From the NCBI GenBank assembly GCA_963576785.1, contig OY756140.1, forward strand, positions 3,100,001-3,164,000: a DNA stretch of 64,000 bases, given 5' to 3'. How positions within the stretch are numbered: the first letter of the stretch is position 1; each line of letters begins with the position of its first letter. This stretch comes from Chlorophyllum brunneum. Its lineage: Eukaryota; Basidiomycota; Agaricomycetes; Agaricales; Agaricaceae. This document shows, piece after piece, positions 20,323 through 63,208 of this stretch. The position numbers and the translations under genes are program-made. The notes under the pieces are model-generated. The model had not been told where the DNA came from. It searched no databases and worked only from the letters and a program-made list of their open reading frames with translations.

Positions 20323-21263
20323 CTCTGGGGTAGTGCCTGGGTGAAGTTGTGGGCCATAGCAGGTGATGTACCAGGGCATACTGAAAAAAGCCGCCGGTTA
20401 TCAGAGAATGCTCATCTGGCTCGAGAGGACTAAATCCTACATCGGTTGGCCTGGTACAGGAAAAATAGCCAGGTTCCAGCTCAAGTTGATTCCACGTCGC
20501 CATTGGCTAAGGCTGGTGGTAAGAGACCCCTCAAGAGGCTCCGTAGACAGGCTATTGATTCGCTGTGCAAACTCAGTGTAGCAACCGTTCAGAAGGCCTG
20601 GAAAGTCACTTTCCAAGACTCCTCCTATCGCGGTTCGAACTTCCTTGCTCTCAAGGATAGTAAGGGCAAGCTTTTACAGCCAACATACCTCCATGGAGGT
20701 TCTTGGCTTCCTTCCTTTCCCTCTCAGTCCATCACGACAAGAGCAAACTGTACCATTCTCAGGCACGCTCCAACCAATGAGTATCACTCCCAGTTTCATC
20801 CTCTAGAGCCTATTGGCTGCAAGTGTAGGGCTCCTTTGGAGTCCCGCACTCATATCTTGTGCTCTTGTCCTTTGTACAAGAGATGTCATGGCCTGCCGGT
20901 CTCACTTGACCAGCTGGTTAGTTTTCTTAAACGTAATCCTTCTGCATTTGCATTTAAGGCCAACATACCCCATGCAGGAGTTGGATAACACAGTGCAACC
21001 CCTGCTAGCTTCCCACGTCATTGACGTGTGTAGAAGTTAATTGCGAATTGACACATACTCTCCCTAGGGAGGGGAGGCTAGGGGTTGCTTGCATATCTGG
21101 TCTAGGATTCACGCGTTCGTGTATGTCTCCACAACCATTCACCCAGACTGCCTGTCAGCGGTCTAGTTTGGCCAGGGGAGAGCCCATCTTCGTATATTAC
21201 CCTCTTTGTAGCCTACATGTCACAGTAGATACAGGTGGACTGCGATCGCGCACCACCTTAAAC

Positions 21264-21294
<31 letters not shown>

Positions 21295-21296
21295 AA
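20323..21296 (+). mobile_element. X-core/LINE-D mosaic (5' part missing)
   Basis: 20323-20550 is the last ~228 bp of the X core, including GCTGAAAAAAGC-type motif TACTGAAAAAAGCCG and the end CTCCGTAGACAGG. It joins LINE-D at ~20551 inside the RNase H C-terminal coding region, then runs through the D 3' UTR to poly(A) 21274-21296. The X 5' part is absent because the full-length LINE-A abuts it on the left. It is one of six cases where X is fused to a LINE 3' end. Confidence 0.85.
20551..20988 (+). pseudogene. LINE-D ORF2 C-terminal fragment in mosaic
   Basis: It encodes the last ~145 residues of LINE-D ORF2: VQKAWKVTFQDSSYRG, YLHGGSWLPSFPSQS and CKCRAPLESRTHILCSC, ending HAGVG-stop. The open frame extends upstream into the X core (from 20446), an accident of the fusion rather than a designed start. 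No catalytic RNase H residues remain. Confidence 0.8.
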
Positions 21297-22977
21297 TCCC
21301 CATCAACTCGGAGGCATTCGCCAATATTCCACTGAGGACGCCGGGTTGTTCCTTACCCACCTGGTTCATGCTGGGTGGGCTAAAGGTCTCAAGACAAGTG
21401 TGGTCGCTTTTGACATTGCTCAGTTCTTCCCTTCTCTGAACCATGAGATGCTCATGGCCATCCTTGCCAAGCAGGGGTTCCCACTTAACGTGCGAACCTT
21501 TTTTGCTTTGTACTTGGTGGGCTGTTCCACTGTTTATACATGGAACAGGTTCTCCTCTGACCCCCAGGGCACAGATGTGGGCGTCGGACAGGGCTTTGCC
21601 ATGTCCCCCATCCTCTCTGGCCTTTATATTGCACCTCTTATGAAGGTTTTCAACTTGTGGGTTACTTCCCCTGGGAGTACTCTGCTGTCTTACACCAATG
21701 ACGGTACCATCGTTGCCCAGGCTAAGACCTGGGACGAGAACTTGGATACCCTCAAGGGGGCATACATTGTTCTCTTTAATCTTTTTGTAGCGTTTGCGCT
21801 TGTCATGGAGCATGACAAGTCCAAGCTTTTCCACTTCTCCAGGAAGTCTGGAGATGTCAATCCCCCCCTCGACTTGGGCTTCGGTCCATTCACAGGGGAC
21901 ACTCCTCTCCACCCTAAGACCTATTGGAGGTACCTGGGCTTTTACTTCGATTATGTCCTGAACTTTCAGGAACATGTTTGACATTATTCTACCAAGGCTC
22001 TCTCCACCGTAAAGGCGATGGAGATGCTGGGTAACTCCTCCCATGGTCTGACCCCCAAGCAGAAGCGGCTCCTCTTCAGGTCATGTGTCATGCCTATTGT
22101 GACATATGGCTTCTGTCTGTGGTACTTTGATAAGGCTCAGTGTAAGGGCCTCCTCAAATCCCTCAATACTATGCAACGCAAGGCTGCGTTGTGGATCACC
22201 GGTGTGTTCCGCACCTCCCCATCTGGCGGCGCCGAAGCCCTTGCTGGTCTCATCCCTGTCCACCTCCATCTGAAGAAGTTGGCCTCAAGAGCGAACTACC
22301 ATCTCTCCACCCTCTCCGATACTCACCCTCTCCGATCCCGTCTCGATCATCTGAATGCCAAGGGTGCCCCCCCACACCCTTTCTGGCCCAGATCTCCTTC
22401 CACGACTCTCCCTGTTCTCGTAACAAGAGGGCCATGCATATAAAGCATCTGAACAGCACCTTGGAACATGCTAATGCCAATCCTCGGGTTCTCACTGTGG
22501 CCATGGATGTAAGTCTGCCACTGGTGGGGGACTTCCAGGCAGTTTCTGCTGCCCATGTTTATAGGGGGACACGCCTGCTTTGTGCAATGTGTCACCCAGC
22601 TGGCAAGGTTACAGCCCCAGATACTGAACTTTTTGCCATTCGTATGGCCTTGGGAACTGCTGCGGCAGTCTCTGAGGCTGTACACATTGCGGTCTTCATG
22701 GACTCGATTGGTTCTGCCAAGCGGGCTCTTGACCCATCCGTATACTCTGGCCAGGGATACTCTCTGGCCATGTGTCGCCTTCTGTTGGGGTGGTTCAGGG
22801 ATCGTCCTGACCGCTCCCTCACTTTCTGGTCTGTTCCGTCATTGGCGAAATGGTCCATTCATCAGGATGTGCATGTATTTGCCACTGACCTGCGGGTTGC
22901 TGCTGGGTGCCACCCAGCGACATCCATCGATTTGCTGCATAAACTTAATGTGGCTACCGTACAGAAGGCTTGGAAGG
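21297..22977 (+). mobile_element. LINE-A/LINE-D hybrid fragment
   Basis: 21297-22507 is LINE-A: RT motifs VAFDIAQFFPSLNH and GVGQGFAMSPIL, then YTNDG where YVDDG is expected, a TGA near 21980 in EHV, and an internal deletion of roughly 175 bp near 22385. Near 22507, within the RNase H TTCCAGGCAGT neighbourhood, the sequence becomes LINE-D (LPLVGDFQAVSAAHVYRG) and stays so until 22977. Frame is kept across the switch. The piece has neither a 5' nor a 3' element end. Confidence 0.8.
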
Positions 22978-23690
22978 TTTTTTTTTTTTTTTTTTTTTTT
23001 AAATCATGGCCTAAGGCTGATTTATTACGCAGCGCCGAACACAGCCCGTGGCCGGAATACAAATGAGTACTCTAGCGGGTATCTACAGAGAAGTGGTAAC
23101 TACGCCCTACCAAGCAAAAGTACCGTTGCCCAAAACCAATGGTAGGAGGAATTGCATCCTACTCCCGAGCCCAGAGGGCGAGAGGAGTGGACGCCAGAGG
23201 AGGCGAGTGGGCAGGGAGGTCCCCCAACCAGCGACCCAGTCCGAAGACCAGGCCCAGTCAGTAGGTGTTAATTCACTGTAAATGCCCGGCGGTGGAGATG
23301 TACCCAGTTACTAGCCCAGCTAGGCCCCAGCTCCCCCTTACTAAAACCCAGTCCCCCAGCCACGGTCACCCTTGCCAGAGTAATTGACCACACCATTTGT
23401 GTGGCTATCGGTATCTTCACCACACCTAGTCACTGTAGGGTCCAGGCCCGTTCATTGGTCACCTGTCTACGGAGCCCCTTGAGGGGTCTCTTACCACCAG
23501 CCTTAGCCAATGGCGACGTGGAATCAACTTGAGCTGGAACCTGGCTATTTTTCCTGTACCAGGCCAACCGATGTAGGATTTAGTCCTCTCGAGCCAGGTG
23601 AGCATTCTCTGATAACCGGCGGCTTTTTTCAGTATGCCCTAGTACATCACCTGCTACGGCCCACAACTTCACCCAGGCACTACCCGAGAG
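22978..23690 (-). mobile_element. X-core/LINE-A mosaic, 3' part (continues at 38964-39645)
   Basis: Reading the minus strand, the last ~229 bp of X (23690 to 23462, ending CTCCGTAGACAGG) join LINE-A 3' UTR at ~23461 and run to a poly(A) (22978-23000 as poly(T)). Only ~460 bp of LINE-A is present. The 5' part of the same X core lies at 38964-39645, separated by the LINE-A (-) inserted into it. No target-site duplication is visible at the outer ends, so a flank may have been rearranged. Confidence 0.82.
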
Positions 23691-24246
23691 TTTTTTTTTT
23701 TTTTTTTTTTTTGATCATGGCCTAAGGCCGATTTATTATGCGGCACTCGAACACAGCCTGCGGCCGGAGTACAAAAGAGTAATCTAGCGGGTATCTACGG
23801 AGAAGTAGTGGACACGCCCCACCAAGCAGACGTACCATTGCCCAAAACCAATAGTAGACAGAATTGCGTCCTATTCCCGAGCCCGGAGGGCAAGGGGAGT
23901 GGACGCCAGAAGAGGCAAGTGGGCAGGGAGGTCCCCCAACCAGCGACCCAGTCCAAAGACCAGGCCCGGTCAGTAGGTGTTAATTCACTGTAAATGCCCA
24001 GCAGTGGAAACGCCCCAGTTACCGGTCTGGTTACTAGCCTCCAGAGTTCCTCTTACTGAGAGTCAACCCCCCGGCCATGGTCACCCTTGCCAGAGTAATA
24101 GGCCGCACCATTTGTGTGGCTATCGGCATCTTCACCACACCTAGTTGCCGAAGGGGACAACTCCATTCATAAAACTCTGACAGTCTTCACCGGACTTTCA
24201 CTGGAGTTCTCCGGCGCTGGACAATAACCCACCTACCCTGAGCCAG

Positions 24247-33952: not shown

Positions 33953-33990
33953 AACATGACGATTAAAAAAAAAAAAAAAAAAAAAAAAAA

Positions 33991-38963: not shown

Positions 38964-39645
38964 GCGCTACCCTGGAGTTGCTTCCCATTCCTCAGCAGCC
39001 AGTTTGGTATGCTTTATGGCCCGGATCCCCGTGCTTAACTGTCTGAGATCTACACCTTGCAGACACCGCTACCAGATTGGTCCTGAGGTTATTTTAAGCC
39101 AACTTATTCAGCATTCTCAATCTGGAGATTGGGTTATGCCTACTAACTACCGGAACTATGCTGAAGCGGACCAGGAGGAGTATCCTATCTTGGCAGCTTT
39201 TTTCAGCACACCCTGAGTCAGACTGTTATCACGACATTCCCCTTCTTATAATGCTCTATCTCCAGCAGTGGCTTAGGTAATCCTCCCAAGTTAGGCCCCA
39301 GCATTAGGGCACTACCACCTTTGGCCAATATTGGACTTGGGCGATGCACATAGCTGGGTCGCACTGTGACAGTGTGACATCACTATGTGACTTGCTATGT
39401 GGCTGGGTGTGACAACTCCCATGCTAGCCTGTGACAGCACCAAACAATGCCAAATAGGACCACACAACCTAATCCGGTGTCATCCGGAAATATTGCTAAG
39501 CAACCATGCCTCGTGCACTGGTACTTCCCACGGTTGAGAATAAATCCCCCCCCACAGGTTTCAAACCCAGGACCTTCTAGCCAAGCAGCTTGGTAGGAAT
39601 TAAGCCTACACCCAAACTACTCAACCATTAGGCCAACCATTGGGC
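38964..39645 (-). mobile_element. X core with tRNA-like head (5' part of mosaic)
   Basis: On the minus strand the head carries box A (TGGTTGAGTAG, 39617-39627) and box B (GGTTTGAAACC, 39557-39567), followed by a run of C, a region rich in GTCAC/GTGAC words and the motif GGTGTGCTGAAAAAAGCTG (near 39200). It is interrupted at 38963 by the LINE-A (-) and continues at 23690-23462. Box A is less well conserved than in the other copies. The outer flank at 39646 is LINE-A. Confidence 0.8.
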
Positions 39646-41868: not shown

Positions 41869-43204
41869 CTAGACATGAGGGGGGTTATGAGGGGGGATAG
41901 GAGAGTGATGACGTCTGTCACACACCTCTCGATAATGGGCTGTCAGCCAGGCCAGTCGTGTTTGTGATTCCAGAAAGCATACTTCCTGGAATCAGTGGGG
42001 TACTCCTTCTTGCAGTTACGACAATGAGGAGGGTGAGGGCACGGTTGACTGGTAGGGATAGCAGGAACCAGAGGCATAGCCTTTGGTTGCCCCTTACAAC
42101 ACAGTGCAAATGTGCGGTGGTTGGCATGAGAGTGCGCTCCACCACAGTTGGGACATGCAGGGCCATTGGCCTTGCACCAGGAAGAGGTGTGGCCCCACTT
42201 GTAACAGCAGGTACATAATAACTTGTTGCGGCGAGGGTTAGCAGAGAGTATAACGCACTGCTTGTTCCCAAACATGATCTTCTTGTTCAGAAGACCGAGA
42301 GCATGGGTACCCCTCATGGAGTCCCAGATGTCAAAGAACACCATACAAGAGTCGGACGTCCTGGAGTTATGCACCAGTCTCGGGAGACCCTTAAGACTGA
42401 TGAGAGGAGCATGCACTGATGAGGTAAGAACCTCCTTGATGTCTGCTGGGGTACATGGAACTCTGGCAGCAGAGTTCTTGAGATAGGGGATGTTGACCAC
42501 ATGGAGGTATGACACCAAGGAGGGGAGTCCAATCCAGAAGGGGGCTCCTGGAGGGGATAGATGTTTGACCAAAGCCCTAAGGATCTCAATATCCTTAGTC
42601 ATGGTGAGCTTATTGGTGGCCATGGAATAGCCATCATATGCAAGCATGGCACCTTCCATGATCAGAGAGCTTCTCCCAGCCTTCAACGCCTTGCAGGCCT
42701 GCTGGGTAAGGGTATGGAGACTGGCTGATGTGTTCGACTTGTTCTCATAGGAGACTAGGACCTGCTTATGTGAAGGTCCAGGAATTGTGAATGCTGGCTT
42801 CTTAGGGTGAGCATTAGACGAGGGGGGTTGCTTCACAGCCTTGGCTTGTGAGTGAAGCCCAAGTATCTGCTCTGCAGAAAGGTGGGAGAAGGCCGCTTTC
42901 AACAAAGAGAGTGGGTTTGTCCCAGATTTGGCCGAGGCTGGTTGTTTCACTGCAGCCAAATAAGCCTTCTGGCCTGGCTTGGGCTTCAAAGTGAGCGTGG
43001 AGGGAGGAGGTCCAGAGGGCCTCTCGTAGGGGACCTGAGGCTTAGTAGGAGCCTTAACAGGTCGGACAGGCACCTTTCCCTTAGGGTCCATGCGTGGGCA
43101 TTTGACTGGAGTCTTCTCTGGGTCCATAAGGTCATTCTCCTCCTGCACAGGGGGTCTGCACTGGGGGGGGGGCTGAGGGTAGAAGGTCCTGGTACCCTTG
43201 GAGG
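41869..43204 (-). pseudogene. LINE-A copy 3 ORF1, C-terminal part
   Basis: The open stretch 41943-43204 (~420 codons) contains the basic middle (KPKPGQKAYLAAVKQPA), the globular part and zinc knuckles CTCCYKWGHTSSWC, CPNCGGAHSHANHRTFALC and CRNCKKEYPTDSRK. A 1-nt deletion near 41957 shifts the frame at HDWPG. The ancestral stop TAG is 41869-41871, overlapping the ORF2 start ATG (41874-41876). The upstream end is cut by the mosaic insertion at 43205. Confidence 0.85.
43191..43204. repeat. Target-site duplication, left copy (diverged-X mosaic)
   Basis: GGTACCCTTGGAGG here and GGTACACTTGGAGG at 46239-46252: 13 of 14 bp match. They flank the whole mosaic 43205-46238. The uninterrupted sequence corresponds to LINE-A ORF1. 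Confidence 0.88.
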
Positions 43205-44640
43205 GCATTGCTCCTTGACTTGTTACCACCACTATCACTTTTCCACTTCCCTTTCCTCGTCGCACCATTCGTTTCTCAGGCTCTCTCTCATGGGCTCATG
43301 TCTTTTCTGAGCCTTCGCTGGCTGTAGGGGGGTGGTCCAGGTGGCAACATTAGTCGGTCGATGGGCAGCGCGCCCTTGGTAAAGGCAATTAAAGGTGGGC
43401 ATATCCCCACCATTCATCTGACTGATGCCTATATGCACAGATCGATGAGGCGGCCCCTTGGTAAAGGGTCTTAAAGGCTGGGATACTGGCCACCTTGCTC
43501 GCTTGTGCTCACTGGGTCATTACTGGTGGCAGCCCTTCTACCAATTAGATGGGCTTGCAGTCCCATATAGGGTTTGCATGTGGGCTTTTACCCCTGCTGC
43601 AGGTCAAGTCTAGCTAGTATCTCGAGGCTGGGCTATACCGGCTGATGACAGACATCCAGGCCCACCCCCAATTGTGCTTGCACATCGGTGGGGAGCATGC
43701 TGAAAAAAGCCACCCCATCGCACCCGAAAGGGACCAAAAGGATAGGAGACAATAATAGGGGGAACGGAGTGATAACAAGCCAACCGAAAGGACAGGCCAC
43801 CCCCCACCAGTGTCGCCATGCCTTCGGGAACCCCTCTGGGGGTAGTGCCTGGTCGTTAGTAGGGATACACCAAACTCCAGGGTATGGATGGGTTTGGGTT
43901 GACTCGGAAAAACTCGGGTTGATTGGTGCCCGTTCTGTGGAATGCTTAAGTAATCCATTCTGCGGGTTGCTTAGGTAATCCAATGTGAACACCACCCTGG
44001 TAGTGCCCCCTGCAAGATAGAGATCCCCGCTAGTATCAGTATGCGGATCCATGCCCAAGACAAGTCGCCTCCTCTGGGGGTAGGGCATTGCGAAAGTGGC
44101 TGTGGGAGAACGGGAAGCTAGTCCAGGGGTCGCGCCTTGGAGGTATGCCTTTGTGGCCTCTGCCTACCCAACTAGTGGACCGTAGCAGGCTGTTTACTGG
44201 GAGCACGCTGAAAAAAGCTGTCCGGTTACCGAGAAGGAGCGGCCCGGCTCGAGAGGTCAAAATCCTCTGTCGGTGGGTCCCCGTGAAGATTGGGGTGTAC
44301 CCATTTGAGTTGTTACCACGCGAGAGGTCTGGTTTTGGGGTGGCGGCATGCACAGTCAAGTAGTGAGATCCTGTCCATGCACCATATAGGAAGGATGCCT
44401 CAAGCAAATGGCGGGCCGGTCCTCAGGGATACCGCACTCTCTCAGTAGCAGGGTGTTCGCCCAAGCTAAAGGCTTTACCTCTTAGGAGGGAGAGGCAAAG
44501 TCCCCGCAACATGGCCAGATGTGACACCAATATGGGAGCCTGGGAACATGCTGGGCATTCTACAGGCACACAATGTCTCAAGACCCCCATCTCTGGGCCT
44601 CTAGGAGCTTTATTCCCTCAAGGGGCTCCGTACATGGGTC

Positions 44641-45931
44641 ATGACTCCTGTTCAGGCGGTCAAGGTCAAGGGGCTGGTCACAAAGGCAAACTCTCATTTG
44701 CCAGACTTAATGGAGACATTCGAGCCATTTGCACTCGAAGCGTTGCCAGGTTCTCATCTTCTGGACCGCTACATGGCCCAGGTGACTTACAAGACATATG
44801 ATGCCTCGCTCGGTGGAAACCCTGCAGGTCGTCAGGTGGATTTGCTCAACAATACCCTTCATGGGTATCATGAGGATAGACAGGTTGTCATGGAGACATT
44901 CAAGCCATTTGCATTCGAAGCGTCACCAGGTTCTCGTCTCCTGGACTGCTACACGGCCCAGGTGACTTACAAAACATATGATGCCTCTCTCGGTGGAAAC
45001 CCTGCGAGTCGTCAGATGGATTTGCTCAACGATACCCTTTGTGGATATCGTGAGGATAGACAGGTTGTCTACGCAGCAACAGACGCAAGTCTGCCACTGA
45101 TTGGGGACTTCCAGGCAGTTTCGGCTGCCCACATTTATAGGGGGACACGTGTGCTTTGTGCAACACGTCACCCAGCTGGCAAGGTTACAGCCCCGGATGC
45201 TGAACTATTTGCCATTCATATGGCTCTGGGGACTGCTCTAGTAGTTTCTGAGGCTGTACATATTGCGGTCTTTATGGACTTGATTGGTTCTGCCAAGCGT
45301 GCTCTTGACCCATCCGTACATTCTGGCCAGGGACATTCCCTGGCTTTGTGTCGTCTTCTGTTGGAATGGTTCAGGGATTGTCCTGACCGTTCCCTCACTT
45401 TCTGGTCCATTCCGTCGTCGGCGAAATGGTCCATTCATCAGGAGGTGCATTTATTTGCCACTGACCTTCGAGTCGCAGCTGGACATTGTCCAGCGACGTC
45501 TATTGATTCGCTGCATAAACTCAACGTAGCAACCGTTTAGAAGGCCTGGAAAGCCACTTTCCAGGACTCCTCTTATCACGGTTCAAACTTTCTTGCTCTC
45601 AGGGATAGTGAGAACAAAGTTCTACAGCCAACGTACCTCCATAGGGGTTCTTGGCTTCCTTCCTTCCCCTCTCAGTCTGTTGCGACGAGGGCGAACCATG
45701 CCATTCTTGGGCATGCACTGACCGGTGAGTATCGCTCCCAGTTCCATCCCTTAGAGCCTATTGGCTGCGAGTGTGGGGCTTTTCTGGAGACTTGCACTCA
45801 TATCTTGTGCTCTTGTCCTCTGTACAAGAGACGTTGTGGCTTGCCGGTCTCTGTTGACCAGCTTGTTAGTTTCCTTAAGCACAATCCTTCAGCATTTGCG
45901 TTTAAGTCCAGCACACCACTTGCAGGAGTTG
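44641..45931 (+). pseudogene. LINE-D ORF2 fragment with an internal duplication
   Basis: It starts in the segment before RNase H (TPVQAVKVKG), passes through a perfect-period 180-bp tandem duplication (44710-45069), and has RNase H residues ATDASLPLIGDFQ, APDAELFAI and FMDLIGSAK (Thr of FTDS lost). A TAG at 45538-45540 replaces CAG in VQKAWK. The C-terminal Cys/His region CECGAFLETCTHILCSC follows, ending near 45931 at GVG-stop. Confidence 0.8.
44710..45069 (+). repeat. 180-bp in-frame tandem duplication
   Basis: Two units, 44710-44889 and 44890-45069, each beginning ATGGAGACATT and ending CAGGTTGTC. The unit is 60 codons and keeps frame, repeating METFxPFAxEAxPGSxLLD through EDRQVV. The units differ at several bases, so the duplication is not very recent or arose between diverged copies. 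Other LINE-D copies have one unit. Confidence 0.9.
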
Positions 45932-46238
45932 GATAATGCAGCGCAGCCCCTGCTAGCTTCCCACGTCTCTGACGTGTGTAGAAGTTAATTGCAAATTGAC
46001 GCATACTCTCCCTAGGAAGGGAAGGCTAGGGGTCGCTTGCTTATCTGGTCTAGGATTTGCACACTCGTGCATGTTTCCATAACCATTCACCCAGACCGCC
46101 TGTCAGCAGTCTAGTTTGGCCAGGGGAGAGCCAATCTTTGTACATCACTACTTTGTAGCCTATATGTCACAGTAGATACAGGTGGACTGCGATTGTGCAC
46201 CACCTTAAACATGATGATTTAAAAAAAAAAAAAAAAAA

Positions 46239-47025
46239 GGTACACTTGGAGGGGTAGCTGGGGGCCTAAAAGTCACCACTGGGGGAGCAGAAAATGCCAA
46301 AGCGATCGAGTCCCTCAGGAAGAGAGAGTCACTCGCCCCTGTGTAGGTTTCACGCCACATGGGGGAGGATGCGACCATCTGGACTATCTTAGATAGTCGA
46401 GAGGCAATGGGACAGAAGGACGGAGCATCCTCCTGGAGAATAAGATGTGCTGTCTTCATGAAGTCAGTGACGATCTCAAGTGACCATTGGATTGCATCGG
46501 CGTCCTCTCTGGCACTAATATTAATGCCCAGGATAGAGAGGGGGGCAGCAGTGGGCTCCTCCTGGTTGTCCTGCTCCATATCCTCTGGGGAGACAGGGGG
46601 AGGAGAAGATGGGGGAAGGGATGAAGCTCTGGCTTCTGTGCCAGGAGCTGGGGTAAGTCGGGAGGGGGTTGAAGACCCTTGTTGCGACGGAGTGTGGCCC
46701 CTCTACTGAAGAGGAACTGTGGGGGCGTAGGTATCCCTGGCACTACTGCCATAGGGGGGGATACCCAGGGAATAAGGGCCTGGAGTGGACCTGGGGGGAG
46801 GACTAACCGCTGCCTCAAAGGTAGTGGCCATATCATCGTCTTCTGAGGAGGCAGTACAATGAGCGCTCATCCTCCTCCTCGAACTGCAGGGAGGCATAGG
46901 GACTATGGGCCCGTATGGTAATCCGTGCTTAGAGCACTCATTGTCTGGGATGTTGAGGATGTTGGGAGTGTCAACGAGGGGTGATCACATGATCGACAGG
47001 TGGGAGTACTGGGAAAAGAAGTGAT
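46239..47025 (-). mobile_element. LINE-A copy 3, 5' end (5' UTR and ORF1 N-terminus)
   Basis: It contains ORF1 from ATG 46897 (MPPCSSRRRMSAH) to the mosaic insertion. There is a TAG after TVPLQ near 46703 (CAG in the other copies). The 5' end lies near 47023 (TCATCACTTCTTTTCC on the minus strand). The next bases, AGCTGGCTACCCAT, are LINE-D sequence, so this LINE-A had itself inserted next to that D site. Confidence 0.85.
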
Positions 47026-47041
47026 GAAGCTGGCTACCCAT
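47026..47041. repeat. Target-site duplication, copy 1 of 3
   Basis: GAAGCTGGCTACCCAT occurs at 47026-47041 and 50037-50052, and its last 15 bp again at 52252-52266. Each interval between them is one complete mosaic, in opposite orientations. The word belongs to LINE-D coding sequence (KKLATR region). Confidence 0.9.
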
Positions 47042-47042
47042 C

Positions 47043-47124
47043 GGCCTAATGGTCGAGTGGTTTGGGTGTAGGCTTAATTCCTACCAGGCTGCTTGGCTAG
47101 AAGGTCCTGGGTTCGAAACCTATA
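47043..47124 (+). ncRNA. tRNA-Leu-like head of the X core (pol III promoter)
   Basis: Box A and box B match the internal pol III promoter consensus. An anticodon-like arm is visible: GTAGG-CTTAATT-CCTAC (from ~47067), whose loop would read UAA (Leu). The long space between arm and box B fits the extended variable arm of tRNA-Leu or tRNA-Ser. The T arm TGGG-TTCGAAA-CCTA is recognisable. The acceptor stem is not complete, so it is a tRNA-derived SINE head rather than a functional tRNA gene. Family assignment to Leu is tentative. Confidence 0.7.
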
Positions 47125-47924
47125 GGGGGGGATTTATTCTCAACTGTGGGAAGTACCAGTGCGCAAGGCGTGGTTGCTTAGCAATATTCCCGGGTGACAC
47201 CGGATTAGATTGTGTGGTCCTGTTTGGCATTATTTGGTGCTGTCACAGGCTAGCGTGGGAGTTGTCACACCCAGCCACATAGCAAGTCACATAGTGACAT
47301 CACACTGTCACGGTGTGACCCAGCTGTGTGCATTGCCCAAGTCCAATATTGGCCAAAGGTGGTGGTGCTCTAATGCCGGGGCCTAACTTGGGAGGATTAC
47401 CTAAGCCACTGCTGGAGATAGGGCATTATAAGAAGGGGAATGTCATGATAACAGTCCGACTCGGAGCGTGCTGAAAAAAGCCGCCGAGATAGGATACCCT
47501 TCCCAGTCCACTTTGGCATAGTTCCGGTAGTTAGTAGACATAACCCAATCTCCAGATTGAGGATGCTGACTAAGTTAAAATAACCTCAGGACCAATCTGG
47601 TAGCAGTGTCTGCAAGGTGTAGATCTCAGACAGTTAAGCATGGGGATCCAGGCCATAAGGCATACTGAACCGGCTGCTGAGGAATGGGAAGCAACTCTGG
47701 GGTAGCGCCTGGGTGAAGTTGTGGGCCATAGCAGGTGATGTACTGGGGTGTGCTGAAAAAAGCCGCCGGTTATCAGAGAATGCTCACCTGGCTCGAGAGG
47801 ACTAAATCCTACATCGGTTGGCCTGGTACAGGAAAAATAGCCAGGTTCCAGCTCAAGTTGATTCCACGTCGCCATTGGCTAAGGCTGGTGGTAAGAGACC
47901 CCTCAAGGGGCTCCGTAGATGGGT

Positions 47925-49730
47925 GATGGCCTTGCCATCTCCCAAGCTAAAACTTGGGAACCTAATCTGGTGTGCCTTAAGCAGGCGTACCAGATTATTT
48001 ATTGCCTGACTACTTTGTTTGGGCTTGCCATCGAGCACGACAAGTCTGAAGTTTTTCATTTCTCCTGTAAACGGGGAGATGACAACCCACCGCTGGATTT
48101 GGGGTATGTCCCCCATACCGGCGATACTCCGCTTTGCCCTAAGACCCATTGGAGGTACTTAGGTTTCTTTTTCGATCGTGCTCTTACATTCAAGGAGCAC
48201 GTTCGGCATTACGCTACTAAGTCCCTGTCCACGGTCAAGGCCATGGGCATGCTCGGTAACTCTTTGCGAGGCCTTCTTCCTGCCCAGAAGAGGACTCTGT
48301 ACTGCTCATGCATAGTGCCCATTGCTACGTATGGGTTTCGACTCTGGTTTTATGAAGGTGCCCGTAACAAGGCCCTTCTGAAACAACTTAACACTATGCA
48401 GCGCAAAGCTGCATTGTGGATCACTAGTGCATTTCGCACCAGCCCCACCGGAGGAGCTGAAGCCTTGGCTGGCCTCATCCCCGTCCATCTTCATCTCAAG
48501 AAGTTGGCTGCCCGTGCTGTCCACAGGGTCACTATGCTTTCTGAGAACCACCCTGTTTGCTCCGTTATAGGGCGTCAGTATATAGGGGGTTGTGTTCCAC
48601 ACCCCAGATCAATTGCTCTCATGACCCCCGCTCAGGCGGGTAAGGTCAAGGGGCCAGTCACAGAGGCAAACTCTCACTTGCCAGACTTAATGGAGACGTT
48701 TGAGCCGTTTGCACTCGAGGTGTCGCCAGGTTCTCCTCTTCTGGACCGCTTCATGGCCTAGGTGACTTTTAAAACGTATGACGCCTCGCTTGGTGGAAAC
48801 CCTGCAGGTCATCAGGTGGATTTGCTCAATGATACCCTTTGTGGGTATCGTGAGGATAGACAGGTTGTCTACGCAGCGACGGACGCAAGTCTGCCACTGG
48901 TTAGAGACTTCCAGGCAGTTTCTGCTGCCCACGTTTATAGGGGGACACGTTTGCTTCAGGCAATGCATCACCCAGCTGGTAAGGTTACAGCCCCAGATGC
49001 TGAACTTTTTGCTATTCGTATGGCCTTGGGAACTGCTGCGGTAGTCTCTGAGGCTGTACACATTGCGGTCTTCACGGACTCAATTGGTTCTGCCAGGCGA
49101 GCTCTTGACCCGTCCGTGCACTCTGGCCAGGGACACTCCCTGGCTGTGTGTTGTCTCTTGTCGGAGTGGTTCAGGGATCATCCAGACCGCTCCCTCACTT
49201 TCTGGTCCGTTCCGTCATCGGCGAAGTGGTCCATTCATCAGGATGTGCATGTGTTTGCCACCGATTTACGGGTTGCTGCTGGATGTCGTCCAGCGACATC
49301 TATTGATTTGCTGCGTAAAATCAATGCAGCAACCATTCAGAAGGCCTGGAAAGTCACTTTCCAGGACTCCTCTTATCGTGGTTCTAACTTCCTTGCTCTC
49401 AAGGATAGTAAGAACAAAGTTTTACAGCCAACGTACCTCCATGGGGGTTCTTGGCTTCCTTCTTTTCCCTCTCAGTCTATTGTGATGAACTGTGCCATCC
49501 TCGGGCACACTCCAACCAGCGAGTATTGCTCCCGGTTCCATCCTCTAGAGCCTGTTGGCTGCGGGTGCGGGTCTCCAGAGGAGCCCCACACCCATATCTT
49601 GTGCTCTTGTCCATTGTACAAGAGACATCGTGGCCTGCCGGTCTCTCTCCGCCAGCTGGTTAATTTTCTTAGACGTAATCCTTCTGCGTTCGCGTTTAAG
49701 GCCAACACACCGCTTGCGGGAGTTGGATAA
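47925..49730 (+). pseudogene. LINE-D ORF2 from RT motif C to the end, one stop
   Basis: The frame starts at GDGLAISQAKTWE (just after the YVDD motif) and runs through the thumb (NTMQRKAALWIT) and RNase H: ATDASLPLVRDFQ, APDAELFAIRM, FTDSIGSARR. A TAG at 48759-48761 after RFMA replaces CAG. The C-terminal region GCGSPEEPHTHILCSC is altered relative to CECGAPLETRTHILCSC. It ends TPLAGVG-stop at 49730. Confidence 0.88.
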
Positions 49731-50036
49731 CGTGGCGCGACCCCTGCTAGCTTTCCACGTCTCCGACATGTGTAGAAGTTAATTGCAAATTGACGCATAC
49801 TCTCCTTAGGGAGGGGAGGCAAGGGGTCACTCTGCATATCTGGTCTAGGATTCACGCGACCGTGCGTGTTTCTGCGACCATTCACCCAGACCGCCTGTTG
49901 GTGGTCTAGTTCGGCCAGGGGAGAGCCAATCTTCGATTACCATCACTAGTGTAGCCTACATGTCACAGTAGATACAGGTGGACTGCGATTGCGCACCACC
50001 TTAAACATGTTGATTTAAAAAAAAAAAAAAAAAAAA

Positions 50037-50051
50037 GAAGCTGGCTACCCA

Positions 50052-50052
<1 letters not shown>
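50037..50052. repeat. Target-site duplication, copy 2 of 3
   Basis: GAAGCTGGCTACCCAT, shared boundary of the two mosaics on either side. Confidence 0.9.
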
Positions 50053-50082
<30 letters not shown>

Positions 50083-52251
50083 GGCCTAAGGCCGATTTAT
50101 TACACGGCGCTCAAACACAGCCCGTGGCCAGAATACAAACAAGTACTCTAGTGGGTATCTATGGAGAAGGTGGTAATTACGCCCTACCAAGCAAAAGTAC
50201 TGTTGCCCAAAACCAACAGTAGGAGGAGTCACATCCTACTCCCAAGCCCGGAGGGCGAGGGGAGTGGACACCAGAGGAGGCAAGTGGGCAGAGAGGTCCC
50301 CCAACCAGCGACCCAGTCCAAAGACCAGGCCCAGTCAGTAGGTGTTGATTCACTGTAAATGCCCAGTAGTGGAAACGCCCCAGTTACCGGTCTAGTTACT
50401 AGCCCCTGGAGTTCTTCTTACTAGGAGTCATCCCCCCGGCCACGGTCACCCTTGCCAGAGTAATAGGCCGCACCATTTGTGTGGCTATCGGCATCTTCAC
50501 CACACCTAGTCGCCGAAAGGGACAGCTCCATTCATAAGACTCCGAAGGTCTTCGCCGGACTTCCACCGGAGTTCTCCGGTGCCAGACAATAACCCACCTA
50601 CCCTAAGCCAGTTATCCAATTCCCTGAGGAACAGATGGGAAAGTGAACGCCTGAGGGTTTGCTTTCAAGCACTTGACAAGGGCACCCGGCATAGCCGGGT
50701 ACCCCCTAGAGGAGTCAAACCTACTGCAGTTGGTAAGAATATGCACACGAGACTCGAAAGGAGCCCTGCATGGACACCAGAACGGTTTGTCCTGGAAGAT
50801 CCGAGACCTGTAGGCCCCAATAGGCACATGGTTGAGAATAACTCTACACATGCAGACGGACAGCGAGTTAGACTCAGCTGCGGCAGAAGGCAGCCACAAA
50901 CCTCCATGGAGGTAAGTGGGCTGGAGAGGCTTACCATTACGCCCTTCGAGAGCCATAAAGTGGCTATCCGGGTAGGTAGGATCCTGGAATCAAGTGATCC
51001 AGGCATCCTGGCAGGATTTGACCACCCTCTGACGAAGGGAGTCAAGCGAGGTTTGCAGACGGGAACCCATAGAGACCTGAAGCTCGGTACAGTACTGGTG
51101 TACAGTACCATAAATGGCCCACTTCTCCGAAGAGTACGCGTGCCAGAAGTGAAGAGAGCATTCAGGGTGACCCCCAAACCACTCTATAAGGGTGTTGCAC
51201 ATAGCAAGTGAGTGAGCCTGCCCAGAGTGAATGGAAGGGTCCACTGCTCTCTTAGCCGAGCCAAGGAAGTCAGTGAACAAGACAATGGAGTCACAATCAG
51301 GAAGGCTGGTAGCCTTTCCAATTGCGATCTGGATAGCATACAGCTCTGCATCAGGAGCTATCACCCCGTCTATGGAGTCCCTTGAGGGGTCTCTTACCAC
51401 CAGTCTTAGCCAATGGTGACGTGGAATCAACTTGAGCTGGAACCTGGCTATTTTTCCTGTACCAGGCCAACCAATGTAGGATTTAGTCCTCTCAAGCTAG
51501 GTGAGCATTCTGATAACCAGCAGCTTTTTTCAGCACACCCCAGTACATCACCTGCTATGGCCCATAACTTCACCCAGGCACTACCCCGGAGTTGCTTCCT
51601 GTTCCTCAGCAGCCAGTTTGGTATGCCTTATAGCCCAGATCCCTGTGCTTAACTGTCTGAGATCTACACCTTGCAGACACCACTACCAGATTGGTCCTGA
51701 GGTTATTTTAAGCCAACTTAGTCAGCATCCTCAATCTGGAGATTGGGTTATGTCTACTAACTACCGGAACTATACCGAAGTGGACTGGGAGGAGTATCCT
51801 ATCTCGGTGGCTTTTTTCAGCATGTTCTGAGTCGGACTATTATCACGACATTCCCCTTCTTATAATGCCCTATCTCCAACAGTGGCTTAGGTAATCCTCC
51901 CAAGTTAGGCCCCGGCATTAGGGCACCACCACCTTTAGCCAATATTGGACTTGGGCGATGCACACAGTTGGGTCACACTGTGACAGTGTGACATCACTAT
52001 GTGACTTGCTATGTGGCTGGGTGTGACAACTCCCATGCTAGCCTGTGATAGCACCAAACAATACCAAACAGGACCACACAACCTAATCCGGTGTCATCCG
52101 GGAATATTGCTAAGCAACCACACCTCATGTACTGGTACTTCCCATGGTTGAGAATAAATCCCCCCCCATAGGTTTCGAACCCAGGACCTTCTAGCCAAAC
52201 AGTCTGGTAGGAATTAAGCCTACATCCAAACCACTTGACCATTAGGCCAAC
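50053..52251 (-). mobile_element. X-core/LINE-A mosaic, complete, with target-site duplication
   Basis: Read on the minus strand: X core 52251-51366 with box A TGGTCAAGTGG (52231-52241) and box B GGTTCGAAACC (52171-52181), ending CTCCATAGACGGG. It then joins LINE-A at 51365 inside RNase H (TGATAGCTCCTGATGC, encoding APDAEL) and runs to the LINE-A 3' end. The tail is not poly(A) but about nine ATA/TAA units (50057-50085) and A5. AAGCTGGCTACCCAT flanks it at 50038-50052 and 52252-52266. Confidence 0.9.
50612..51365 (-). pseudogene. LINE-A ORF2 C-terminal fragment in mosaic
   Basis: RNase H from APDAELYAIQI on: LFTDFLGSAKRAVDPS (FTDS became FTDF), HFWHAYSSEKWAIYG, then YLHGGLWLPSAAAES and the CPCRAPFESRVHILTNC motif, ending PQGIG-stop at 50612. 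Two open blocks (50990-51365 and 50612-50956) are separated by a defect near 50970-50985. The frame extends into X upstream by chance. Confidence 0.8.
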
Positions 52252-52700
52252 AAGCTGGCTACCCATACTATCCATAGGATTGCCATGCTTTCTGAGAATC
52301 ATCCTGTACATTCTGTTATGGGACATTAGTATACTGCTGGGTGTGTTCCACACCCCAGATCAATCACTTTCATGACTCCCACTCAGGTGGTTAAGATCAA
52401 AGGGCTAGTTACAGAGGAAAACTCTCGTTTTCCAGAATTAATAGAGGCATTCGAGCCTTTTGCACTCGAAGTATCACCAGGTTCTTGTCTCCTAGACCAC
52501 TATATGGCCCAGGTGACTTTCAAAATGTATGATGCCTCACTTGGTGGAAATCCTGTGGGTTGTCAAGTGGATTTGCTCAACAATACTCTTTGCAAGTATT
52601 GTGAGGATAGGCAAGTAGTCTATGTAGCGATGGACACAAGTCTGCCATTGATTGGAGACTACCAGGCAGTTTTGGCTGCCCATGTTTATAGGGGGACACA
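52252..52700 (+). mobile_element. LINE-D fragment (segment before RNase H)
   Basis: It starts at the AAGCTGGCTACCCAT target word and reads as LINE-D (KIKGLVTEENSRF, VTFKMYDASLGGN, then MDTSLPLIGDYQ with the catalytic ATDAS changed). It is cut at 52700 by the poly(T) of an inverted LINE-D. It is the continuation of the D copy into which both mosaics were inserted. Confidence 0.85.
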
Positions 52701-58418: not shown

Positions 58419-58499
58419 CACAAGATATGAGTGCGGGTCTCCAAAGGAGCCCCACACTCACAGCCAATAGGATAGGAGGGCATATTTGCTCCAAGTATC
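58419..58499. mobile_element. Short LINE-D (-) scrap and 28 bp unassigned
   Basis: 58419-58471 matches the LINE-D C-terminal Cys/His coding region on the minus strand (similar to 7600-7655). 58472-58499 shows no match that I can recognise. Confidence 0.6.
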
Positions 58500-58768: not shown

Positions 58769-61651
58769 TTGGCTGTAGAACTTTGTTCTTACTATCCTTG
58801 AGGACAAGGAAGTTTGAACCACAATAGGAGGAGTCTTGGAAGGTAACCTTCCAGGCCTTCTGAACAGTTGCTACATTGAGTTTACGCAGTAAATTGATGG
58901 ACGTCGCTGGACGATGTCCAGCAGCAACTTGAAGATCAGTGGCAAATAAATGCACATCCTAATGAATGGACCATTCCACCAAAGACAGAATAGACCAGAA
59001 GGTAAGGGAACAGTCAGGACAATCCCTGAACCACTCCAACAGAAGACGACACACTGCCAGGGAATGTCCCTGGCCAGAGTGTATGGACAGGTCAAGGGCT
59101 TGCTTGGCAGAACCATTTGAGTCTGTAAAGACTGCAATATGTACAGCCTCAGAAACTGCCACAGCAGTCCCCACAGCCATACAGATGGCAAAAAGCTCAG
59201 CATCTGGGGCTGTAACTTTGCCAGCTGGGTGACGCAATGTACAAAGCAAACGCATCCCCCTATAAACATGGGCAGCCAAAACCATCTGGTAGTCCCCAAT
59301 CAACAGCAAACTTGTGTCCGTCGCTGTGTAGACCACCTGTCTGTCCTCATGATACTCACCAGGGTATCATTGAGCAAGTCCACTTGACGACCTGCAGGGT
59401 TTCCACCAAGCGAGGCATCGTATGTTTTGCACATCACCTGGGCCGCATAGCAGTCCAGGAGCCGAGAACTAGGGGACGCTTCGAGTGCGAATGGCTCGAA
59501 TGACTCCATTAAGTCTGGCAAACAAGAGTTTGCCTCCGTGACCGGCCCCTTGACCTTGACTGCCTGGGTGGGGGTCATGAGAGCAATTGATCTAGGGTGT
59601 GGAACACAACCCTCTATATACTGATGCCCCATGACAGAGCAGACAGGATTGTTCTCAGAAAGAGTGGCTACCCTGTGTACAGCACGGGTAGCCAGTTTCT
59701 TAAGATGGAGGTGGATGGGGATGAGGCCAGCTAAGGTCTCAACTCCTCCAGTGGGGCTGGTGTGGAATGCACCAGTGATCCACAATGCAGCTTTGCATTG
59801 TATGGTGTTAAGCTGCTTCAGAAGAGCCTTGTTACGGGTACCTTCATAAAACCAGAGTTGGAACCCATATGTAACAATAGGTACTACACACGAGCGATAG
59901 AGAGTCCTCTTCTGTGAAGGAAGAAGACCTCATGATGAGTTACCAAGTATGTCCATGGCCTTGACCATGGACAGAGACTTGGTAGCATAATGCCAAACAT
60001 ACTCTTTGAAGGTAAGAGTGTGATCGACGAAAAAACCCAAGTACCTCCGATGGGTCTTAGGGCATAACGGAGTATTACCGGTATGGGGAGCATACCCCAA
60101 ATCCAGTGGTGGGTTGTCATCTCCCCATTTATGGGAGAAATGAAAAACTTCAGACTTGTTATGCTCGACAGCAAGCCCAAATGAGGTAGTCAAACGATAT
60201 ATAATCTGGTATGCCTGCTTAAGGCATACCAAATTAGGCTCCTAGGTTTTAGCCTGGGTGATGGCAAGGCCATTGTCGACATATGAGAGCAGAGTACTCC
60301 CAAGTGCAATTGCCTCCCTGTCATACAATTTCATGAAGGGGGCGAGATAAAGGCTGGAGAGGATGGGAGAGAGTAACGAGCCCTGACCTACCCCTACATC
60401 TGCCTGTCTGAGATCAGACTTATGGTTTCCCCACGCATATTGCATAGAGCAGCCAACTAAATAAGAGGCAAAGAATCTACCCACGCAGGGGTCAAATCCT
60501 TGCTTCTGCAAAATTGCCAACAACATATTGTGGTTGAGCGAAGGAAAGAACTGAGTGATGTCAAAAGCGACAATGCTAGTCTTGAGGCCCTTGGCCTACC
60601 CTGCACAAACAATGTGGGTTAGGAGCATCCCAGTATCATCAGTGGACCTCTGACGGATACCACCAAGCTAATTTGGATGAAAGACTCCATGCTTGGCCGA
60701 GTCAAACTGGAGGCAATTTGAGATCATCTTTTTGCTAAGCTTGCCAAAGGTGTTCAGGAGCACAATGGGCCTGAATGCCTTAGGTGTTGAGTAGGATGGC
60801 TTGCCCAGTTTTGGTATGATAACCAACAAGCTTTCCTTGAAATGGGATGGCCAATGACCCACACACATGCAGGCATTAGCTATCCTGATGAATAGCTGAA
60901 GAACTTCAGGGTCCTCGGTGATCTCTTTGAGGTGGGTCCACGTTACGTGGTCTGGCCCTGGGGCGGACACACCTGAGCAAGCACTCAGGGCATCCATCAG
61001 CTCTAAGGCTAAGAAATGGACCCACTCCCTAGCCAGAAGACTTGGCAGTGGATCAAGAATGGAAATATCCACAGCTCGGCCAGAAGCTGAATTGTAGGTA
61101 TTGTGGAGTGCATCCCAGAGGTCTGGGAGTGCATGACATGGCTCTCCATTGTACTGGATAGCCTCACAGGGTAGAAGCTTCCACTTCTGGACCCATTCCA
61201 TAAGGTCCCATGGTCACTTGTTGGTAGAAACAATCTCCTTGATGCAAGCATTGAAGAAGTTGCATTTAGCATGCTTCTTAGCACATCTAAAATCAGAGTA
61301 GTCATTGTGAGAATGAGTCTCATGATATCTCCTGAAGGTTTTGCAGCATTCCTGATTCCACCAGGGTTTAGAGCGGCGAGTGATCATGATGTCCACTGCA
61401 TGGGCTTCCCATGCAGTGGAGAAGGCTTCCACCACGGCATGAACCGCAGCTTCAACCTCATCTGTGGTAGTAGGTTCTGGAAGTCTAGCTACTTCACGGA
61501 GGTCCTGGATAACATCAGTGAGGAAGAGCACTACCTCTTTGCCACCATCATGCAGCAGGGTTTTCCTGTGAGTCTCCACTATTGTGGGTGTGACTGGAAG
61601 CACCAGAACTGGTGGAATGTGGTTTGATGGACCCCTAAGGGAGTAATCCAA
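58769..61651 (-). pseudogene. LINE-D ORF2 remnant in six open blocks
   Basis: Blocks: 61214-61651 and 60668-61201 (linker and first RT motifs; SAPGPDHVTWTHLKEI, KAFRPIVLLNTFGKL), 60242-60526 (GVGQGSLLSPIL; LSYVDNG, catalytic Asp changed), 59930-60232 (VEHNKSEVFHFSH), 59300-59785 (AALWITGAF region), 58959-59336 (ATDTSLLLIGDYQ, APDAELFAI, FTDSNGSAK). Breaks are mostly nonsense codons. No function is likely. Confidence 0.8.
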
Positions 61652-61690
61652 CCTAGGCCTATGGGAGATAGACAGGTCTGATGGAACAAA
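58769..61690 (-). mobile_element. LINE-D (-) fragment: linker, RT and RNase H, heavily mutated
   Basis: The reverse strand runs from the endonuclease end (SLRGPSNHIPPV near 61640) through linker and RT to the RNase H C-terminal part at 58769. There is no 3' UTR or tail. At 61691 it turns into LINE-D (+), so it is bounded by inversions on both sides. The segment is more diverged than the D copy at 25258. Confidence 0.83.
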
Positions 61691-62035
61691 TGCACTTCAC
61701 AATACTTACAACTTGGCCTCTGGCTGAGCTGTAGATATTTCTGTTCTTGATCCACTACCAAGCCTTCTGGCTAGGGAGTGGGTCCATTTCTCAGCCTTAG
61801 AGCTGATGGATGCCCTGAGTGCTTGCTCAGGTGTGTCCGCCCCAGGGCCAGACCATGTAACGTGGACCCACCTCAAAGAGATCACTGAGGACCCCAATGT
61901 CCTTCGGCTATTCATTGGGATAGCTGATGCCTGCATGTGTGTGGGTCATTGGCCATCCCATTTCAAGGAAAGCTTGTCAGTTATTATACCAAAGCCGGGC
62001 AAGCCATCCTACTCAACACCTAAGGTGTTTAGGCC
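61691..62035 (+). mobile_element. LINE-D (+) fragment, left of the X mosaic
   Basis: Linker and first RT segment (LMDALSACSGVSAPGPDHV, HLKEITEDPNVLRL, IIPKPGKPSYSTPKVF). It is interrupted at 62035 by the X mosaic and resumes at 63209. AAGGTGTTTAGGCC (62022-62035) and AAGGCATTCAGGCC (63209-63222) are the diverged target-site copies, 11 of 14 identical with only transitions. Confidence 0.85.
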
Positions 62036-63208
62036 TGTCAGCCTAATAGTCGAGTGGTTTGGGTGTAGGCTTAATTCCTACCAGACTGCTTGGCTAGAAG
62101 GTCCTGGGTTTGAAACCTGTGGGGGGGATTTATTCTCAACCATGGGAAGTACCAGTGCACGAGGCGTGGTTACTTAGCAATATTCCCGGGTGACACCGGA
62201 TTAGGTTGTGTGGTCCTGTTTGGTACTGTCACAGGCTAGCATGGGAGTTGTCACACCCAGCCACATAGCAAGTCACATAGTGATGTCACACTGTCACAGT
62301 GTGACCCAGCTATGTGCATCACCCAAGTCCAATATTGGCCAAAGGTGGTGGTGCCCTAATGCCGGGGCCTAACTTGGAAGGATTACCTAAGCCACTGCTG
62401 GAGATAGGGCATTATAAGAAGGGGAATGTCGTGATAACAGTCCGACTTGGAGCGTACTGAAAAAAGCCGCTGAGATAGAATACCCCTCCCAGTCCGCTTC
62501 AGCATAGTTCCGGTAGTTAGTAGACATAACCCAATCTTCAGATTGAGGATGCTAACTAAGTTGGCTTAAAATAACCTCAGGACCAATCTGGTAGCAGTGT
62601 TTGCAAGGTGTAGATCTTAGACAGTTAAGCACAGGGATCCAGGCCATAAGGCATACTGAACCGGCTACTGAGGAATGGGAAGCAACTCTGGGGTAGCACC
62701 TGGGTGAAGTTGTGGGCCGTAGCAGGTGATGTATTGGGGCATGCTGAAAAAAGCCATCGGTTATCAGAGAATGCTCACCTGGCTCGAGAGGACTAAATCC
62801 TACATTGGTTGGCCTGGTACAGGAAAAATAGCCAGGTTCCAGCTCAAGTTGATTCCACATCGCCATTGGCTAAGGCTGGTGGTAAGAGACCCCTCAAGGG
62901 GCTCTATAGATGGGTGAACTAACACTTACTGACCGGGCCTGGTCTCCAGACTGGGTTGCTGGTTGGAAGACCTCCCTACCTGCTTGCCTTCTCTGGCATC
63001 CACTCCCCTCGCCCTCTGGGCTTGGGAGTAGGATGCAATTCCTCCTACCATTGGTCTTGGGCAATGGTACTTATGCTTGGTAGGGCATAGCTACTCTTTC
63101 TCCATAGATACCCACTAGAGTACTCATTTGTATTCCGGCTGCAGGCTGTGTTTGAGCACCACGTAATAAATTGGCCCTAGGCTACGAAAAAAATAAAAAA
63201 TAAAAAAT
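62036..63208 (+). mobile_element. X-core/LINE-A mosaic with short LINE-A 3' UTR
   Basis: 62036-62918 is the complete X core: box A TAGTCGAGTGG (62047-62057), box B GGTTTGAAACC (62107-62117), GTCAC-rich zone (~62245-62310), two CTGAAAAAAGCC motifs (~62457 and ~62744), end CTCTATAGATGGGT. It joins LINE-A 3' UTR at ~62919, only ~265 bp from the LINE end. The AATAAA signal is present. The tail is A7-T-A6-T-A6-T-AA rather than pure poly(A). Diverged target-site copies flank the whole unit. Confidence 0.88.

Follow-up and report, generated by a model that had tools for sequence, protein, structure and literature searches.

A candidate four-nucleotide guide for the joining of mobile non-coding RNAs to LINE RNA in the fungus Chlorophyllum brunneum

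Introduction

Fusions of a non-coding RNA with part of a long interspersed nuclear element (LINE) are known, and the closest described system to the one treated here is MINE (WEIRD-MGL) of Magnaporthe, in which a full-length non-coding RNA is fused in sense to variable 5'-truncated LINE 3' ends (PMC2104539; statements on this paper, here and below, refer to the portion of the account available). This article deals with a comparable mosaic system in the basidiomycete Chlorophyllum brunneum, found in a stretch of 64,000 nucleotides (positions 3,100,001 to 3,164,000 of contig OY756140.1, assembly GCA_963576785.1, hereafter the window, C2:3100001-3164000), where non-coding RNA sequences called X are joined to LINE 3' parts. 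The mosaic architecture is already known from MINE; what is new is the guide, an internal tetramer of X complementary to the LINE bases that span the break. On balance it seems probable that X RNA uses this guide to pair with LINE RNA and becomes joined to it at that place, and that the X families are mobile by means of the LINE 3' end so acquired.

The MINE breakpoints carry the motif GCC↓A/U (↓, break) at 28 sites, which was interpreted as pausing of the reverse transcriptase (RT), and its authors exclude pairing of the nascent complementary DNA (cDNA) with the second template, while pairing of WEIRD RNA with LINE RNA is not discussed in the available portion (PMC2104539). Among the representative sites tabulated there, 12 of the 13 distinct ones read G-Y-Y (Y, pyrimidine). 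U6/LINE-1 (L1) and other mammalian chimeras also consist of a full-length small RNA in sense with a 5'-truncated L1 inside one target-site duplication (TSD), and the part of that account available mentions no guide (PMC13174262). No guide-based account of such chimeras was found in the literature searched, in which subscription journals are thinly covered, and we know of no guide for the U6/L1 chimeras.

X has the features of a MINE-type element, namely a fixed 3' end, a sense 5'-truncated LINE, TSDs and a breakpoint motif, which in X depends on the family. In addition, X and MINE have in common the absence of a solo core, a motif of 3 nt 5' of the break, a preference at the +1 base and a tripartite case (PMC2104539). 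However, MINE has one RNA and one motif, while X comprises several homologous RNAs, which use different motifs on the same LINEs and each contain a matching tetramer.

X RNA families and their junctions with LINEs

The first-pass annotation of the window, made from the sequence, assumed one shared X core. The genome (38.9 Mb, 14 contigs) was searched, and the "X core" proved to be at least four homologous non-coding RNA families: three tail kinds among the junctions define X1, X2 and X3, and X4 was found on contig C1. The X1 core has 883 bp and a tRNA-Leu(TAA)-like head, detected by ARAGORN in two window copies (47041-47131 and 62038-62128). X2 has 1432 bp, no tRNA head and a different start from X1; the window's 44638 end belongs to it. 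X3 is about 86% identical to X2, and the X2, X3 and X4 sequences seen are all without a tRNA-like head. By nhmmer X1, X2/X3 and X4 are homologous, with E values of about 1e-54 to 1e-59 for X4 against X2/X3 and about 1e-17 to 1e-22 for X4 against full copies of X1. TTTT runs are present in X2 and X3 and absent from the X1 consensus and the one X4 copy.

In all, 167 junctions were read: 148 of X1-X3, including one ungrouped X2-like end (L042), and 19 of X4-type. X1 contributed 73, X2 37 plus one assigned later, and X3 36, four of which were already in the first X1/X2 listing. Across the whole genome the X1/X2 3' end pattern gave 109 sites (57 forward, 52 reverse; 100 of the 109 were listed) and the X3 pattern 36, with 0 in each control, the X1/X2 control being the reversed pattern; 6 of 122 pattern matches were dropped as unrelated LINE sequence. 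These end patterns demand a nearly intact X tail and so bias the sample, whereas a DNA search with the X1 core does not. That search (query 47042-47924) found at least 40 near full-length copies with 92-95% identity, the query included, a lower bound because only 40 candidates were scored. Of its 42 X1 rows, 41 have their end at X1 878-883 and the remaining one at 834; the 42 do not include two more rows, which are weak matches to X2.

The fixed X end, the variable LINE start and the outer TSDs that the first-pass annotation described for the window are confirmed. The last X base is G in 137 of 143 X1-X3 tails, and the X4-type tails end in GAG or AAG in 18 of 19 cases. The annotation had also proposed looking for X copies with their own poly(A), and none of the 148 X1-X3 junctions runs directly into a poly(A) tail. 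Seamless joins, defined as at least 7 of the first ten LINE bases matching without a gap, make up 139 of 143 comparable X1-X3 junctions. In a sense-strand search 135 of 147 X1-X3 junctions matched the references for LINE A, D or C, and 12 matched none of them. More than one LINE family is used by one core, as had been claimed: X1 is joined to LINE A 33 times, D 24 and C 9 (7 matched none of the three references), X2 to D 29 and A 7 (none, 2), and X3 to D 31, A 1 and C 1 (none, 3), while L042 is joined to A. The LINE pieces are 5'-truncated, and their starts spread over thousands of LINE bases. Of 16 full units on C1 and C2, 11 have TSDs around X and LINE together (X1 6/10, X2 4/4, X3 1/2); these duplications are 15-20 bp long and follow the A-rich tail in an automatic search that allowed one mismatch and was run without a random control, and the decayed pair 62022/63209 is additional. 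Two "head-only" X1 matches on C1 resemble X1 interrupted by a reverse-oriented LINE.

Distinct junction sites number 59 for X1, 32 for X2 and 25 for X3, over three LINE families, which answers the annotation's question of many fusion points or one. Consequently it is hardly credible that X-LINE units are fixed composites, that is, a few fusions of single origin multiplied as whole units, even though some junctions do recur (for example C2 local 43462/92668, L072/L073 and L101/L102).

Short interspersed nuclear elements (SINEs) derived from tRNA and provided with LINE tails are a known system. X is like them in the tRNA-Leu-like head of X1, the lack of TTTT in its consensus and the dependence on LINE 3' ends. 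However, such a head occurs in X1 only, there is no fixed 3' tail of its own, and unlike in these SINEs the LINE tail varies by copy, the core having neither a fixed LINE tail nor its own poly(A).

The breakpoint rule

Each junction was compared with uninterrupted LINE copies, up to 15 related ones standing in for the true source LINE. Junctions with fewer than three such copies (X1 L049, L060 and L091; X3 L125) were omitted, as was the ungrouped L042, and identical sites were counted once, so that 70 X1, 38 X2 and 35 X3 rows gave 59, 32 and 25 distinct sites. Otherwise it is copies that are counted, and local duplication may account for some of the shared junctions. Which LINE bases are missing immediately 5' of the join depends on the X family: CGA↓C for X1, CTC↓C for X2 and CCT↓C for X3. 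At positions -3, -2 and -1 the 59 X1 sites have C in 53, G in 49 and A in 40; the 32 X2 sites have C in 28, T in 31 and a pyrimidine in 30, with C at -1 in 18; and the 25 X3 sites have C in 17, C in 20 and T in 19.

The control set consists of 64 LINE starts without X, a mixture of 5' truncations and nested-insertion breaks. The X1 rule CGN holds in 43/59 own sites, 3/64 control starts and 0/57 sites of other X families; the X2 rule CTC/CTT in 25/32 own sites and 3/84 other-family sites, with CTY in 10/64 control starts; and the X3 rule CCT in 9/25, 1/64 and 1/91, respectively. Fisher p values are 3e-16, 3e-9 and 3e-5 for X1, X2 and X3 against the control and 9e-19, 5e-16 and 2e-6 against the other X families. 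The +1 base is preferred in the order C>T>A, with G in 2 of 116 sites as against 21 of 64 controls. Information reaches 1.1-1.8 bits at -3 and -2, and outside -3 to +1 it peaks at 0.10 bits for X1 and at 0.38 bits, at -13, for X2.

Plain template switching by the LINE RT, with breakpoints that are random or set by pausing at LINE motifs or hairpins, was the explanation of the first-pass annotation and of Gogvadze 2007, and it agrees with MINE both in the architecture and in the upstream breakpoint motif reported there (PMC2104539). However, the X1, X2 and X3 motifs differ on the same LINEs A and D, and the motifs are not a feature of LINE starts without X. Because X1 and X2 share LINEs A and D as partners, pausing on LINE RNA alone cannot explain the rule, and a plain jump from randomly truncated LINE RNA is not supported, since the breakpoints obey a family-dependent rule of 3-4 nt that matches the complement of an X tetramer. 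This explanation is now very improbable. Random truncation with microhomology was rejected because the conserved LINE bases are the lost ones and not shared ones. Spliceosomal trans-splicing was likewise rejected, the LINE bases before the break being mostly GA, TC, TT or CT and not AG, and so was a codon-based account, since the few X1 sites inspected by eye fall in different frames and past the stop codon.

L046 (C4:2544314) is an X1 joined inside X2 sequence at a CGA↓C site, so that the joining target need not be a LINE.

The internal tetramer

At one homologous internal place, directly 5' of UGAUAAC/UGAAAAC, X1 has GUCG, X2 GGAG and X3 GAGG, and these complement CGA↓C, CUC↓C and CCU↓C, respectively, at every base. 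The complementarity is to the LINE RNA, not to its cDNA, and the tetramer spans the broken bond. Each family's tetramer ranks first of all 256 for its own sites, and in a scan of the family alignment no window scores higher than this place, either among 589 strict windows (score 8.68, next 7.76) or among 675 with a three-column shift allowed (9.64, next 8.72); in the strict scan a one-base insertion puts X3 out of register by one column. Pairing extends to all four bases in 32/59 X1, 23/32 X2 and 13/25 X3 sites. Two other candidate guides, one in CCACGUCGCC near the X1 3' end and one in CUAGGAG of the X2 tail, were rejected, since their counterparts in the other families do not fit, while the UGAUAAC-flanked tetramer fits all. 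The X-like copies C8:180139 and C4:445859 have other tetramers at the guide place (UGAG and a GGAG-like one).

X4-type copies have the guides GGGC, GGGG and GACC, and the three upstream bases pair fully in 13 of 19 cases: G-Y-Y precedes the break in 8/11 cases with GGGC (chance about 5% per case, P 7e-9), Y-Y-Y in 4/7 with GGGG (chance 16% per case, P 0.014) and GGT↓C in 1/1 with GACC (chance 1% per case). The X1, X2 and X3 guides fit 0, 1 and 2 of these 19 sites. Of the first nine cases, which include X4 on C1, seven pair at all three positions, the GACC case among them; for X4 on C1 (guide GGGC) the closest LINE copy, 91.5% identical, reads GTC↓C. Written predictions cover only the X4 target on C1, noted ahead of the reading of its LINE site, and ten later cases, and for these ten, predicted before the sequences were fetched, there were six full matches, three with 2/3 pairs and one that is ambiguous. 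The ambiguous case, L160, counts among the misses, although GTT↓C would result from a homopolymer shift; the score of L158 comes from two LINE copies, with another one offset; and the X4-type site letters were entered by hand for the pairing counts. The motif thus tracks the X tetramer also in families found later, which again stands against plain template switching.

Proposed mechanism and its rivals

X1-X4 would be families of one mobile, structured, non-coding RNA copied by the LINE machinery. The four-nucleotide guide would lie in an internal loop bounded on one side by a GGGG(G)/CCCC(C) stem and on the other by a GCC/GGC or UCC/GGA stem, and would pair with a LINE RNA tetramer, of which three bases are 5' and one is 3' of the later break. 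A cut in the LINE RNA between -1 and +1 would be followed by joining of the fixed X 3' end, usually G, to +1, most likely by a splicing-like transesterification at the RNA level that resembles the opening step of reverse splicing by introns. With its LINE 3' end and poly(A), the chimeric RNA could then undergo target-primed reverse transcription to give one TSD-flanked X-LINE insert. A guided join of this kind would change the junction in most copies while the X end stays. The loop structure, the RNA-RNA pairing, a cut before reverse transcription and a chemistry supplied by X RNA itself are inferred from these patterns, and a splicing-like reaction by the 3'-terminal G of X is the leading, though unproven, form of it.

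A helix downstream of the guide, picked by eye in seven sequences, has 95% of its cells paired and covariation between families; both its paired cells and its covariation score exceed all 500 shuffles and the slid versions. Two copies of a hairpin-like motif around GCUGAAAAAAGCC are present in X1-X3 (altered at one X3 place), with a single relative in X4; the motif is possibly a protein-binding site.

Several results weigh against guided joining by X RNA. Pairing is limited to 3-4 bp, and it is incomplete at -3 to -1 in 20/59 X1, 4/32 X2 and 10/25 X3 sites, of which some misses look like CpG decay. The X3 guide fits 11/32 X2 sites and the X2 guide 4/25 X3 sites, because the two guides are alike. 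Six of the 19 X4-type sites miss at least one pair (L153, L154, L159, L160, L164 and L165), and for X4 on C1 the more distant LINE copies read GTG. For the downstream helix, the number of pairs with double changes is reached by 314 of 500 shuffles. Moreover, a search of Rfam at E up to 10 gave only weak unrelated matches and no known ribozyme or intron in X1-X4, a search of 43100-52400 at E up to 1 gave no match, and neither free X RNA nor a source gene of X was seen.

RT template jumps often add or lose bases. A guided template jump, in which X is tethered by its guide and the LINE RT jumps to the X 3' end so that the join is made in cDNA, would account for the guide, the fixed X end, the TSDs and the orientation, and published work attributes such chimeras to template switching in LINE reverse transcription (PMC2104539). 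Against it stand the seamless joins (139/143), though the tail pattern favours intact tails, and the fact that the guide-paired +1 base is retained while -1 is lost, which places the break inside the duplex rather than before it. A guided jump is therefore a serious but rather unlikely alternative to joining at the RNA level.

No nuclease with a four-nucleotide guide is known to us. It would be needed if a host nuclease on X RNA cut the LINE RNA under the guide and an RNA ligase sealed it to X, a route for which the tRNA-like head of X1 speaks, and RNA ligation has been weighed against template switching for U6/L1 chimeras (PMC13174262, in the part available). However, X2, X3 and X4 behave alike without that head, and this route is improbable.

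Group I introns have an internal guide sequence and a 3'-terminal omega-G and are capable of reverse splicing. X resembles them in what appears, statistically, to be a contiguous guide across the break, in the usual terminal G and in the joining of its 3' end to the 3' part of the target; it differs in having only 3+1 pairs, in being a mobile element and in lacking a 5' exon. The U at -1 of group I is replaced by A in 40/59 X1 sites and by C in 18/32 X2 sites, and no P3-P8 core was matched by Rfam in X1-X4 at E up to 10, though a divergent core could escape. Group II introns use pairing of exon-binding site 1 with intron-binding site 1 (EBS1-IBS1) and EBS3/delta pairing, those of class IIC using about 3-4 bp, and X is similar in its short pairing 5' of the cut plus one base 3'. 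However, X tails are GGG/GAG rather than AY, and the Rfam search gave no group II match, domain V included. X is filed under neither group because no Rfam ribozyme or intron model matches.

A wider proposal is tentative and somewhat doubtful: X RNA would be a trans-acting ribozyme whose 3'-terminal G attacks LINE RNA where a programmable guide directs it and which splices itself to the LINE 3' fragment, its LINE tail being rebuilt in each round, and the same system with other guides would operate in WEIRD/MINE and maybe widely in fungi. G-Y-Y at the MINE sites (PMC2104539) is what one would expect if a GGC guide paired there with G-U wobble allowed, as X4 does here, and MINE may form by the same guided route. 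If guided joining is true, a fusion hitherto ascribed to polymerase slippage becomes an RNA-guided reaction between two transposons, in which a LINE parasite selects its joining site by base pairing, and the origin of MINE, U6/L1 and similar chimeras becomes testable through a four-nucleotide element. Should X RNA prove to act by itself, nuclear genomes would contain a new natural trans-splicing ribozyme.

Units in the window

All six X-type 3' ends reported for the window are present, namely 20551, 44638, 47923 and 62914 on the forward strand and 23462 and 51365 on the reverse strand, with LINE D at 20551, 44638 and 47923 and LINE A at 23462, 51365 and 62914, and the four outer TSD pairs (43191/46239, 47026/50037, 50038/52252, 62022/63209) are all readable. 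The 23462 end, which had been counted as an X-type core, does carry an X1 end, but only as the 3' part of an X1 copy split by about 15 kb. The features are as follows.

43191-43205, forward: left TSD of the X2-LINE D unit; right copy 46239-46253, 1 difference in 15
43207-44638, forward: X2 core RNA, 1432 bp, no tRNA head, ending ..CTCCGTACATGGG
43766-43769, forward: X2 guide tetramer GGAG, complement of CTC↓C
44639-46238, forward: LINE D 3' piece with poly(A); uninterrupted copies have ..CTC↓ ahead of the break
47026-47041, forward: left TSD GAAGCTGGCTACCCAT; right copy 50037-50052, identical over 15-16
47042-47923, forward: X1 core RNA, tRNA-Leu(TAA)-like head at 47041-47131
47442-47445, forward: X1 guide position, reading GTCA (family consensus GTCG; CpG decay)
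47924-50036, forward: LINE D 3' piece with poly(A); uninterrupted copies have ..TCGA↓ ahead of the break
50053-51364, reverse: LINE A 3' piece; uninterrupted copies have ..TCGA↓G at the break
51365-52248, reverse: X1 core RNA
51846-51849, reverse: X1 guide GTCG
52252-52266, forward: TSD of the X1-LINE A unit; other copy 50038-50052, identical over 15-16
62022-62036 and 63209-63223: decayed TSD of the 62040-63208 unit, 4 transitions in 15, read by eye and missed by the automatic search
62040-62914, forward: X1 core RNA, tRNA-Leu(TAA)-like head at 62038-62128
62428-62431, forward: X1 guide GTCG
62915-63208, forward: LINE A 3' end piece with A-rich tail
38964-39634, reverse: 5' part (X1 2-667) of the interrupted X1 copy, guide GTCG at 39232-39235
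23462-23692, reverse: 3' part of the interrupted X1 copy (X1 652-878), then LINE A; uninterrupted copies have ..TTCGA↓T
20321-20551, forward: X1 3' fragment (from 652), then LINE D; uninterrupted copies have mostly ..GACAT↓C, one GACGT↓C

By majority reading, 4 of the 6 window junctions (23462, 44638, 47923 and 51365) fit the family rule fully at -3 to -1; those at 20551 and 62914 read CAT and CAG, and other LINE copies have CGT and CGG. The parts of the interrupted X1, separated by about 15 kb between 23692 and 38964, both contain X1 ~652-667. The X1 3' fragment at 20321-20551 is similar to 23462-23692 in the opposite orientation. At 50037-52266 two X-LINE units share one target in opposite orientations, the right TSD of one being the left TSD of the next.

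Genomic distribution

For the most part the X1-X3 mosaics are clustered, with a single block of about 50-170 kb per contig (C1 1.87-2.04 Mb, C2 3.09-3.18 Mb, C3 2.24-2.33 Mb and one on most other contigs), and these blocks are probably centromeric. Copies outside them include C1:4575442, C6:43252, C8:132392, C9:1954639 and scattered copies on C12, and X4-type copies are mostly located outside the X1-X3 blocks. X and LINE copies often differ by CpG to TpG/CpA changes, for example in the X1 tail GACGGG and the X1 guide; this pattern of substitutions suggests methylation or a process like repeat-induced point mutation (RIP). In the window, a LINE protein is encoded at 16398-19766, for which Pfam and PDB searches, made for this protein only, detected an RT domain and, below threshold, an endonuclease match. 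Most named relatives of this protein come from agaric fungi, such as Cyclocybe and Candolleomyces.

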